A DNA stretch of 64,000 nt from Calothrix sp. FI2-JRJ7 (GTDB taxonomy: Bacteria > Cyanobacteriota > Cyanobacteriia > Cyanobacteriales > Nostocaceae). Below, one piece after another: positions 4,958-42,607 of the stretch. The translations under genes were made by a program, and so were the position numbers. Location of the stretch: contig JAHHGX010000080.1 in NCBI GenBank assembly GCA_019359675.1, positions 1-64,000 on the forward strand, in the 5' to 3' direction. Each line of letters starts with the position of its first letter. The stretch's first letter is position 1. The notes under the pieces are model-generated. The model saw only the letters and a list, made by a program, of their open reading frames with translations. It was not told the DNA's origin and ran no database searches.

Positions 4958-5060
4958 ATGGGTAAAAAATTTGCCACTATAGATGGAAACGAAGCGGTTG
5001 CTCGTGTAGCTTACTGTTTGAATGAAGTAATTGCTATTTATCCAATAACACCTTCTTCAG
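4958..5060 (+). pseudogene. nifJ: nifJ, first segment (N-terminal 34 codons), interrupted
   Basis: Start of pyruvate:ferredoxin (flavodoxin) oxidoreductase, which converts pyruvate plus CoA to acetyl-CoA and passes electrons to ferredoxin or flavodoxin, for example for nitrogenase. The segment reads [19 protein letters not shown] and ends [10 protein letters not shown]. Family members continue with a small residue, M or I, then G-E-W-A-D-A-W. Here homology stops at 5060 and foreign sequence begins; the frame then runs to a stop at 5158. The missing continuation lies at 41598, so this is a gene split by element 1, not simply a decayed one. The two segments add up to a whole number of codons. 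Confidence 0.93.
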
Positions 5061-5082
5061 GGATAGTAAACAACGTGAGGTT
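5051..5082 (+). other. Left attachment site of element 1
   Basis: The core TCAG (5057-5060) is followed by ATAGT (5063-5067), three unmatched bases and CAACGTGAGGTT (5071-5082). The right end carries the inverse: AACCTCACGTTG (41572-41583), three bases, ACTAT (41587-41591) and the same core (41594-41597). A circular joint of the two arms would be a near-perfect palindrome about 48 bp long, centred on the dinucleotide CA. That is the expected form of a large-serine-recombinase site with a 2-bp crossover. Confidence 0.85.
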
Positions 5083-5138
5083 GACGCTCAACCCCACCTT
5101 CTACTATTTGGCGCTACCCACGCACACAAAAAACGTCG

Positions 5139-5282
5139 CTAGATATCACTCTCCTTGACATACTGAGGTAATAGCGATGGGTCTGCCATTATTTTTCGCC
5201 GTGTTTCCAAATCTAGATGCTTGATTTTATGATATAAAATCGCTAATCTTAGCAGCGCTTCAGGTAGCGTTTCTTTTTTCAT
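5139..5282 (-). CDS. Small protein, 47 aa
   Basis: Unrecognised. The frame starts [14 protein letters not shown] and is strongly helical and charged. Its ATG overlaps the stop codon of the upstream gene as ATGA (5279-5282), which implies translational coupling and is the main reason for calling it. It lies within 80 bp of the left attachment arm of element 1, so a role in excision or in directing recombination is possible. That is only inference from position. Confidence 0.55.
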
Positions 5283-5491
5283 ACTTCCTCTACGTCTTCA
5301 GGGAGTTCAAGCAATTCGGGAAACAGGCACGCATACCCCTGTACTTCTTTGTGTCTTTCAGCGGGGACATATTGATAAACCAGTCGTATATTTTTATGAA
5401 TTGCTGCACTTGTTTCTTCATCTAAATCCAGAGTGAACTTATAAAAAAAAATCATTTCCGACAAAATACGTTTAGCAACTTCCGACAACAT
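5279..5491 (-). CDS. Small acidic protein, 70 aa
   Basis: Unrecognised. It is an acidic helical protein with a C-terminal run of leucine, proline and glutamate ([13 protein letters not shown]). A CAGGG lies about 9 bases before the ATG. It forms a coupled two-gene unit with the 47-aa protein downstream at the left edge of element 1. It does not resemble XisH or XisI, the accessory proteins of the fdxN element. Confidence 0.55.
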   Translation of the reverse strand: MLSEVAKRILSEMIFFYKFTLDLDEETSAAIHKNIRLVYQYVPAERHKEVQGYACLFPELLELPEDVEEV

Positions 5492-39919: not shown

Positions 39920-40144
39920 GTAGGAACAAAGGGGTTTTAGCAGAGGTGATGCGTTACCACTTTTGCAAAACTCGAATCATTGGATAAATACCTATGAAAA
40001 AAAACTGCCGAATAGCAACATGGGTAACAATTCAGCGGTTTATTTTATGATAAGATTATTGATAAAATCGCTTCATAGTATTATGAGAACTCGCAAAGAA
40101 ATTTTCACAGATTTTTTACAGAGGTTGCGTGATTGGGAGATGCC

Positions 40145-41530
40145 TCAGAATTTTAATTCAACGGTAATATTACCGGATTCATCGGTGGTAAATTTAGAGA
40201 CTAATTCCTTAAACACCTCTTGTGTAAAATCATCATCTAGAGATTCCCAGAAAGCCGCGTAACCGACCTTGTGAACAAGTTCTAGGTAATCATCGTCTTT
40301 ATTTTGAGGCTGCATCTTAGCTCTTGCAAGGGCGTTGTGAAGCTGGGTTTCTAGGTCAGTTATTGCGTTTAAAATTGCCGGATTTCGAGAGTTCATGCCG
40401 CGCAAATTTGATAACTGGGTGCGTAGCTCTAAGATTTCGGGTGATTCAGTGCTTTGCTCTTGGTTTGTTGCGTCACTAGCCATAGTGATAAGTTGTTGGG
40501 AGTGTTCAATGATTTTTTCAATGACATTTTCAATGACTTTTCTCAAATGAATATATTTTTTGTTAGGACAAAAGTGGTCGCCCTTAGCGTGTTTTCCGCA
40601 GCGAAGGAACTCAGTACGTTTTTTCGATTTACCAATCTCTCGAACTAGTCCACCGCCACAAAGAGCGCATTTCCCCAAGCCTGCCAATGGGTATTTTCCT
40701 TTGTTTGGACTACGACCGCGAAAAGTTCTGTTAGTGCTTAAATTTTGATTAATTCTCTCGAATTCCTCTTCGCTCATCAACGGTGTATGAGTGTTGTAAT
40801 GTAGTATCGGGTCAATATTTTCCTTATCTTTATAATAAATTTGCTTGTCCTGAAAATAATAATAATGAGTATGCCCTCGCAGCGACGGATTCATGAGCCA
40901 TTTTTTTAATCCACTTATTGAAATTTTTATATCGTAAACTTCATAGATAATTCGGCAGCAACTTCTTAATGGTTGTTCACAGAGCAATTTAATGATTTGT
41001 TTGGCGACTTCACTGTTAGATAACCCTGTTTTTTGATTTATTGTTTCATCTGGGATTAAAATACCTTCGCGTGTTCTGGTATACCCAAAGATTGGTTTAA
41101 AACTCTTCTTTTGAGAGCGTATATAGGCGTTACCGTGGCGCACTCTATCGCTTAACAATTCCGACTCAAATTGCGCGTATATTGCGAGTGTGGCTATATT
41201 TAGCCTACCGACTGCTGTTGAGAAATCTATACTAGATTCAAGGACTCGTAAATTAACGTTATGTTTTTTCAATGTTTGGACAGTCTTAAAAAAATCGGGC
41301 ATAGAGCGAGATAGCCTGTCGATTCTTGTTATGAGAAGTTCGCTGATTCTATTTTGCTGAACTAAACTCATCAATTCCTGAAACTGCGGTCTATCAGTAC
41401 TTCTGCCGCTTTTAATGTCAATATATATATGTTCAGCCCCAGCGCGTTTTAGTCTATCAATTTGCTGCTCAAGTCCAGTTTCAGCGGCTTGGTCGGTAGA
41501 GCTTAGTCTCGCGTACCCAACGACTACCAT
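40145..41530 (-). CDS. Large serine recombinase, XisF-like (element 1 excisionase)
   Basis: 461 aa. The resolvase domain starts V-V-G-Y-A-R-L-S-S-T-D-Q with the nucleophilic serine, and contains T-R-I-D-R-L-S-R-S. It is followed by the recombinase DNA-binding domain, a zinc ribbon (C-A-L-C near 300, with a later cysteine pair) and a coiled-coil tail. The ATG at 41530 (M-V-V-V-G-Y) is chosen because the extra upstream residues do not fit the family. The gene begins 64 bp inside the right core and reads inward, as in the fdxN element. It is the natural candidate for joining the two nifJ pieces. No xisH or xisI is recognised nearby. Confidence 0.92.
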   Translation of the reverse strand: MVVVGYARLSSTDQAAETGLEQQIDRLKRAGAEHIYIDIKSGRSTDRPQFQELMSLVQQNRISELLITRIDRLSRSMPDFFKTVQTLKKHNVNLRVLESSIDFSTAVGRLNIATLAIYAQFESELLSDRVRHGNAYIRSQKKSFKPIFGYTRTREGILIPDETINQKTGLSNSEVAKQIIKLLCEQPLRSCCRIIYEVYDIKISISGLKKWLMNPSLRGHTHYYYFQDKQIYYKDKENIDPILHYNTHTPLMSEEEFERINQNLSTNRTFRGRSPNKGKYPLAGLGKCALCGGGLVREIGKSKKRTEFLRCGKHAKGDHFCPNKKYIHLRKVIENVIEKIIEHSQQLITMASDATNQEQSTESPEILELRTQLSNLRGMNSRNPAILNAITDLETQLHNALARAKMQPQNKDDDYLELVHKVGYAAFWESLDDDFTQEVFKELVSKFTTDESGNITVELKF

Positions 41531-41571
41531 AAATATTCCCCTAGGTGATATCAAGGAATATTATCATAGAT

Positions 41572-41602
41572 AACCTCACGTTGAACACTATTCTCAGCTA
41601 TT
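41572..41602 (+). other. Right attachment site of element 1
   Basis: AACCTCACGTTG (41572-41583), AAC, ACTAT (41587-41591) and the core TCAG (41594-41597), then nifJ resumes with CT-ATT-GGA-GAA-TGG. Joining at the core to 5060 gives codons TCA-GCT-ATT-GGA, in frame. Confidence 0.85.
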
Positions 41603-42607
41603 GGAGAATGGGCAGATGCTTGGTCTGCTGTCTCCCTTCCAAATTTATGGGGTACTGTTCCTAGTGTTATTGAAATGCAAAGTGAAGGTGGCGCCGTTGC
41701 TGCTGCACATGGCGCCTTACAAGCTGGATCACTAACAACAACTTTCACCTCATCACAAGGGTTGTTGTTAATGATTCCCAACTTATATAAAATTGCTGGT
41801 GAACTTACAAGTATTGTTGTTCACGTTGCTGCACGTGCGCTTGCTACTCATGCATTATCAATATTTGGCGACCATAGTGATGTAATGGCAGCGCGCGCAA
41901 CTGGGTTTGTGATGTTGTGTTCTGCTTCAGTACAAGAAGCACATGATTTTGCTTTAATAGCTCAAGCTGCTACCCTCAAAGCACGAGTTAGTTTTATGCA
42001 TTTCTTCGATGGTTTCCGTACTTCTCACGAAGTGCAGAAGGTAGAGTTATTACAAGATGAAGATTTAAAAAGTGTAATAGATGAAGATTTAATTTTGGCA
42101 CACCGTGCGCGCGCTTTAACTCCTGACCGTCCTGTGTTACGTGGTACAGCCCAAAACCCCGATGTATATTTTCAATCTAGAGAAGGCGCCAATCTTTATT
42201 ATCAAGCTTGTCCAGATATTGTTCAACAAGTCATGGATGATTTTGGAAAGCGTACAGGTAGATATTACAAGATATATGAATATTACGGCGCCAGTGATGC
42301 TGAGAAAGTTATCGTTATTATGGGGTCGGGATGTGAAACAGTACACGAAACAGTAGATTATTTGAACGCACACGGTGAAAAAGTCGGTGTCGTGAAAGTG
42401 CGATTATATCGTCCCTTCGATGTCCAAAAATTTATAGACGTATTGCCCAGTACCGTAAAATCAATAGCTGTTCTCGACCGTACCAAAGAACCTGGAAGTG
42501 CTGGAGAACCACTTTATCTAGATGTAGTCACCGCTATTCACGAAGCTTGGTCTGGTTCTAATTATCCTAAAATAATTGGTGGTCGTTATGGGTTATCTTC
42601 TAAAGAA
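41598..42607 (+). pseudogene. nifJ: nifJ, second segment (about 336 codons), interrupted at both ends
   Basis: The continuation of pyruvate:ferredoxin oxidoreductase: I-G-E-W-A-D-A-W, M-Q-S-E-G-G-A, T-F-T-S-S-Q-G-L-L-L-M-I-P-N-L-Y-K, S-I-F-G-D-H-S-D-V-M-A-A-R, F-H-F-like F-F-D-G-F-R-T-S-H-E. It ends G-G-R-Y-G-L-S-S-K-E, where the family normally goes on with F-T-P. The frame is fully open, with no decay, as expected if selection still acts on the rebuilt gene. After 42607 it runs into foreign codons and a stop at 42634. Domain I and much of domain II are present; the remaining roughly 800 residues must lie beyond this window. Confidence 0.93.

Follow-up and report, generated by a model that had tools for sequence, protein, structure and literature searches.

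Two putatively excisable integrative elements interrupt nifJ in series in the cyanobacterium Calothrix sp. FI2-JRJ7

Organization of the nifJ locus

The present analysis concerns the nifJ gene in a 64,000-nucleotide stretch of Calothrix sp. FI2-JRJ7 (assembly GCA_019359675.1, contig JAHHGX010000080.1, positions 1 to 64,000; hereafter the window), in which the gene is interrupted by two integrative elements, designated element 1 and element 2. The source genome (G000; 8.66 Mb, 91 contigs, 99.92% complete) was searched in full with the NifJ family profile TIGR02176, and three collinear nifJ pieces were found on the plus strand, all on this contig (C80), covering profile positions 1–34, 29–367 and 362–1167, respectively; the third match (contig 121712–124117) lies beyond the window. 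The same search revealed no other full NifJ in the genome; an earlier note on this DNA had named the presence of another intact copy as part of what would refute its reading. The remaining match was a weak 19.7-bit stretch on contig C76. No gene for a pyruvate:flavodoxin/ferredoxin oxidoreductase other than nifJ was found in genome G000. The features of the locus are as follows.

4958..5060, plus strand: nifJ piece 1, codons 1–34 and base 1 of codon 35, ending in the core TCAG
5057..5060, plus strand: left core TCAG of element 1
5061..5082, plus strand: attP-like half-site at the left end of element 1, with an inverted copy at 41572–41593
5061..41597: element 1, 36,537 bp, from the end of the left core to the end of the right core
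40145..41530, minus strand: xis1, gene of the element 1 large serine recombinase (XisF type, 461 amino acids; NF041201, 423.1 bits, cut-off 375)
41572..41593, minus strand: attP-like half-site at the right end of element 1
41594..41597, plus strand: right core TCAG of element 1
41598..42606, plus strand: nifJ piece 2, reaching approximately codon 370, its final bases being the core AAAGA
42602..42606, plus strand: left core AAAGA of element 2; right copy at contig 121718–121722, outside the window
42605..42625, plus strand: attP-like half-site at the left end of element 2, with similar ends in genomes G003, G004 and G005 (by eye)
42607..121722 of the contig (42607..64000 in the window): element 2, 79,116 bp
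42632..42634, plus strand: stop within element 2 at which the truncated nifJ frame terminates
42651..44120, plus strand: xis2, gene of the element 2 large serine recombinase (XisF type, 489 amino acids; NF041201, 432.8 bits, cut-off 375)
121723–124123 of the contig, outside the window, plus strand: nifJ piece 3, the last 800 codons

The earlier note had correctly placed NifJ codons 1–34 at 4958–5060, the resumption of the gene at 41598 after the TCAG of 41594–41597, and a large serine recombinase gene at the right end of the insert. It had also described the two pieces as undecayed, and both are without stops; their join at TCAG is in frame, and the DNA of this joint (joint 1), CCTTCTTCAGCTATTGGAGAATGG, matches the uninterrupted site of the same-genus genome G006 over all 24 bases compared. 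The claim that precise removal of the 36.5-kb insert restores nifJ did not hold. Since nifJ is cut again after 42606, removal of element 1 alone does not rebuild the gene: the frame of piece 2 continues beyond 42606 into GLSSKECCTIQSTL and then meets a stop, giving a truncated frame of 379 amino acids (60 codons before ATG 41675, plus 319). Position 42607, taken in that note as the end coordinate, is in fact the second breakpoint, and this break had been missed. Element 1 sits at nifJ codon 34/35 and element 2 at approximately codon 370. When both elements are removed, a stop-free, in-frame NifJ of 1170 codons is obtained, which scores 1866.2 bits over TIGR02176 positions 1–1167, i.e., at the level of intact relatives (1865.8 bits for the intact gene of G006). 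The second joint (joint 2) encodes GLSSKEFTPAM; G001 and G006 have these residues too, their DNA differing at a few synonymous positions.

Borders and predicted circle joints

Short direct repeats are present at the borders of both elements (TCAG, 4 bp, and AAAGA, 5 bp, respectively). The predicted circle joints of both elements are 48-bp near-palindromes with a short core; 18 of 24 positions per arm are symmetric in circle joint 1 and 19 of 24 in circle joint 2, values reached by 0 of 20,000 shuffles in each case (maxima of 16 and 17, respectively). The rebuilt chromosomal sites are less symmetric (13 of 24 each). Large serine integrases have a palindromic attP of about 50 bp around a short core; the symmetric circle joints, set against the less symmetric rebuilt sites, correspond to the attP/attB geometry expected of these enzymes.

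Recombinases xis1 and xis2

The recombinase frames of both elements are intact. Both products match Resolvase, Recombinase and Zn-ribbon, xis2 falling slightly short of the Recombinase cut-off (20.3 bits against 21.1). The two proteins are 31% identical to each other. According to a published rule (PMC4874684), an xis gene in the orientation of the interrupted gene stands at the start of the element and one in the opposite orientation at its end; xis1 and xis2 both obey this rule in placement and orientation. The xis2 gene is under purifying selection, with a ratio of nonsynonymous to synonymous substitution rates (dN/dS) of 0.10–0.16 in six pairs. It should be noted that an NtcA box (42440–42453) lies about 200 bp upstream of xis2 but within the nifJ coding sequence, and it was given no weight; the same applies to a promoter scan of 41400–42800 (5 found, 3.4 expected).

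In the family searches with xis1 and xis2, at most seven candidates were scored per genome. Proteins more than 80% identical to xis2 (82–84%) were found, besides G000, in G003, G004 and G005 among the 217 genomes of the family, and in each of them the gene occupies the nifJ site of element 2. Outside G000, a protein with more than 50% identity to xis1 was found only in G120, a genome of another genus (53%). Among 388 genomes drawn evenly across the order (four candidates scored per genome), only G000 had an xis1 match at E 1e-110; this survey is incomplete, since G120 would pass but is absent from it. Among the plasmid matches listed (at least 5000 records), all relatives of xis1 and xis2 had less than 60% identity, the best full-length ones being cyanobacterial XisF-like proteins. 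In viral contigs, 3 and 5 pattern-matching stretches were found for xis1 and xis2, respectively, none encoding a relative of either, in a search that reaches close relatives only; circle joint 1 was not found in viral contigs either.

The next-closest relatives of xis2 (41–55% identity) were located at a gene with Mg_chelatase and ChlI domains, which we take to be comM/YifB-like (loci L175–L180; genomes G230, G034, G185, G198, G052 and G214). This gene is cut at Mg_chelatase profile position 110–118 in six of six loci; in G214, the recombinase lies about 1 kb from the comM-like gene and has only 353 amino acids. XisF-type elements appear to interrupt this comM-like gene, which is not among the genes in Table 1 of PMC4874684.

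Occupied and empty sites in related genomes

Split nifJ genes were identified among the matches listed for 100 relatives and in 30 chosen genomes, and the survey of the 217 family genomes covered the best matches, so that elements with other recombinases at nifJ sites may be missed. The search for nifJ with and without the insert, which the earlier note had proposed, revealed site 1 empty in G006 and occupied at the same codon in G120. Site 2 is occupied in four of the seven same-genus genomes searched (G000, G003, G004 and G005) and empty in the other three (G001, G002 and G006), whose nifJ is uninterrupted. Splits at profile positions 347/351 in G051, G116 and G168 were not counted, as they lie at contig ends.

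The elements at site 2 differ greatly in size, with approximately 79.1 kb in G000, 126.8 kb in G003, 6.2 kb in G004 and 33.6 kb in G005. With each of these three counterparts, element 2 of G000 has no full-length gene in common except xis2 (frames of at least 80 codons; local alignments of 79–82%); beyond it, one short partial match was found in G003, and G004 and G005 have one further gene in common. The synonymous divergence (dS) between G003 and G004 is 0.087 for xis2 and 0.522 for nifJ, whereas that between G000 and G004 is 0.663 and 0.217, respectively. Since xis2 is much younger than nifJ in one pair and much older in another, vertical inheritance is hard to reconcile with these values, and repeated lateral arrival at one site is suggested. 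With nifJ providing the host comparison, this points to laterally acquired, site-specific modules of a recombinase plus attachment (att) sites, whose cargo turns over almost completely. The element of G003 (L189–L195) contains very long frames, of up to 6171 amino acids, and two proteins tested were nonribosomal peptide synthetases (NRPS).

At site 1, the xis1 relative of G120 adjoins nifJ at the same codon-34 spot within a 14.7-kb element, which has the recombinase alone in common with element 1. An alternative core for the G120 element, AATGGGAGA, was set aside: of 110 NifJ loci examined, 102 had a match (8 had none), and the residue L that this core would give occurs in 0 of the 102, against 51 for the P obtained with the TCG core. 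A second nifJ cut in G120 was also rejected, since the break falls at two contig ends with overlapping, slightly differing sequences, and one element was counted.

Selection on the nifJ pieces

The dN/dS of the joined nifJ was 0.094 between G000 and G006, compared with 0.071 for the intact pair G006–G002. By piece, the values were 0.307 (34 codons, uninformative), 0.156 and 0.066 for G000–G006 and 0, 0.120 and 0.055 for the intact pair. Private amino acid changes in NifJ numbered 10 in G000, 8 in G006, 16 in G002, 14 in G004 and 12 in G005, the last two being interrupted themselves. In the five genomes with an insert (G000, G003, G004, G005 and G120), the pieces are stop-free and a second full nifJ was found in none, whereas two other family members, G020 and G255, have decayed nifJ genes with many stops. 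No decay of nifJ is visible in G000, though the insertions may postdate most of the changes.

Cargo of the elements

The cargo features are listed below.

7752..9648, plus strand: CRISPR array of 26 repeats (24 exact), element 1
16929..18074, plus strand: DUF3800 protein, PADLOC candidate defence family PDC-S51 (411.7 bits), element 1
34830..38957, minus strand: CyRepA1-like plasmid replication protein, 1375 amino acids (187.5 bits, under the curated cut-off of 200), element 1
46335..52631, minus strand: type I-B-like cas operon (Cas6, Cas3, Cas8b, Cas7, Cas5), element 2
66695–77753 of the contig: second type I cas set with Cas1d and Cas4d, element 2
78211–86700 of the contig: type III-D-like cas set, element 2

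No cas match was obtained in the scanned frames near the CRISPR array of element 1 (6163–7332, 10893–11336 and 11485–12921). An excised circle of element 1 might replicate as an episome by means of its CyRepA1-like protein. A frame at 18257–20032, P-loop-like by eye, had no match in plasmids, and plasmid relatives of the element DNA were short patches covering at most 4% of the query (Calothrix accounting for 4 of the 11 records in one case and for the single record in the other). Element 2 holds three cas gene sets (contig 46335–86700; 46335–64000 in the window), for which 18 proteins were scanned and named by their best profile matches; a three-gene block at contig 108708–111235 has relatives in the G120 element. 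Direct repeats of about 70 bp (CTCAACGCCCTACGACATCTGAGG...) and a short palindrome, TGTTCGA..TCGAACA, were seen by eye in element 2 at 45150–45540.

Host context

The host genome contains a Peptidase_S48 gene (264.4 bits), which we take to belong to the HetR family. Its nifD is split near the C-terminal end, positions 1–434 being on contig C75 (187433–188749) and positions 427–466 on contig C77 (60369–60488); a frame beside the small piece presumably resembles xisA. Taken together, nifD and nifJ suggest at least three interruption elements of this kind in the host.

Discussion

The nifJ gene is interrupted in series by two integrative elements, which are probably excised in heterocysts, where the gene would be rebuilt. 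Each recombinase would join its two half-sites in differentiating heterocysts, releasing a circle and leaving nifJ in frame, and NifJ would be made only in cells from which both elements have left. Heterocysts are terminal cells, and therefore loss of the circles would be no cost to the germ line. The heterocyst-type element proposed in the earlier note stands as far as its nature is concerned, and such a reading appears well supported by the precise in-frame joint, XisF scores above the cut-off, palindromic circle joints, low dN/dS, the split nifD and the HetR-family gene; what did not stand is the single cut, as the gene is cut twice.

Several observations weigh against this reading. XisF of the fdxN element needs xisH and xisI, according to PMC4874684, and neither gene was found inside either element; they have 17 and 22 matches elsewhere in genome G000 and, on C80, only near 156 kb. 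An NtcA consensus scan was at the level of chance (10 found, 12.5 expected). The cores, of 4 and 5 bp, are short, and joint 1 is present in the assembly only in interrupted form (the sequence that follows the core is found a single time). Piece 1 carries one private change, R20C, and no pair among the five closest genomes exceeds the dN/dS of 0.156 obtained for piece 2, the pair G005–G006 coming near it with 0.152. Finally, both elements are missing from G006, which stands nearest to G000 by nifJ dS; insertion may therefore be recent, and what the selection test records may be mainly the period before it.

A recent insertion would also suit ordinary integrative elements that killed nifJ, with no developmental excision and with pieces not yet decayed. 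The private change R20C and dN/dS values that are somewhat raised in pieces 1 and 2 fit this alternative, as does the fact that nifJ can be lost, 6 of the 217 family genomes being without a nifJ match at 1e-7. However, stop-free pieces without a second full nifJ in all five insert-bearing genomes, set against the decayed copies of G020 and G255, argue against it, as do the intact recombinase frames, the purifying selection on xis2 and the splitting of nifD, itself needed for nitrogen fixation; we consider the death of nifJ improbable. It is also rather improbable, and slightly more so, that the elements leave and re-enter reversibly in vegetative cells, as phase variation or a plasmid-like episome unrelated to heterocysts. 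The integrase-like recombinases, their lateral movement, which suggests ongoing integration, the CyRepA1-like protein (below its cut-off) with which a circle might replicate, and related recombinases in a comM-like gene, for which we know of no role in heterocysts, are in keeping with such behaviour. Against it, no empty joint 1 was found in the assembly and no circle joint 1 in viral contigs, and nifJ and nifD are nitrogen-fixation genes, which are common targets of heterocyst elements (PMC4874684). As regards an assembly artefact joining unrelated contigs inside nifJ, the genome is a draft of 91 contigs, but the three pieces follow each other in order and strand within one 183-kb contig, the assemblies of G003 and G005, with 8 and 10 contigs, respectively, have the same structure at site 2, and att-like half-sites mark the borders; such an artefact is extremely improbable.

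If the two elements are indeed excised in heterocysts, their arrangement allows an order of excision to be proposed. The xis2 gene starts 16 bp downstream of the truncated nifJ frame; in G003, G004 and G005, the nifJ stop is directly followed by an ATG that is in frame with xis2. Being almost without a spacer behind the truncated frame, xis2 may be transcribed from the promoter of nifJ. In G000, xis2 is separated from the 5′ end of nifJ by element 1, and the exit of element 2 would then have to await that of element 1. Such a relay, in which the nifJ promoter would drive xis2, element 1 would exit first, NifJ would be timed late and the exit of element 2 would strip cas genes, is a tentative and rather doubtful proposal. 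If it were true, removal of element 2 would take three cas sets off the chromosome of the terminal cell.

Comparison with known systems

Elements in nifJ were reported in 2016 by Hilton, Meeks and Zehr (PMC4874684, Table 1: two elements, one position variant), and that paper gives ten genes with several elements each, e.g., nifD of Rivularia PCC 7116 with four. Consequently, the kind of system described here is already known, both multiply interrupted genes and nifJ elements having been published. No other paper on nifJ elements was found in the open-licence literature, as judged from titles, counts and the starts of abstracts. Within these sources, a second nifJ position, a double cut of nifJ, cargo turnover at one site and cas cargo were not found in print. 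The elements of the present study agree with the published nifJ elements (PMC4874684) in the gene, the recombinase family, the logic and the rule of xis placement, and differ in that two elements occupy two positions in one gene; since the table has one nifJ position variant, at least one of the two positions is not in it.

Compared with the fdxN element of Nostoc PCC 7120, whose recombinase is XisF, both recombinases score above the NCBIfam threshold for XisF, whereas the interrupted gene and the core are different and xisH and xisI are not inside the elements. With large serine integrases they have in common the domains and a palindromic circle joint of about 48 bp; unlike in those systems, the target is a protein-coding gene to be rebuilt, and close relatives were not found in viral contigs (phage genes were not searched systematically). 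In their behaviour, the elements seem to be modules of lateral origin that are specific for their site and exchange their cargo, rather than one inherited remnant, which speaks to an old question about such elements; the cargo can be large (three cas sets in G000, NRPS genes in G003). As in nifD of Rivularia PCC 7116, several elements lie in one gene and all would need removal (PMC4874684). In contrast to the multiply cut genes of that paper, in whose available part dependence between elements is not discussed, element 1 here separates the nifJ 5′ end from xis2, and the double interruption makes ordered excision testable.

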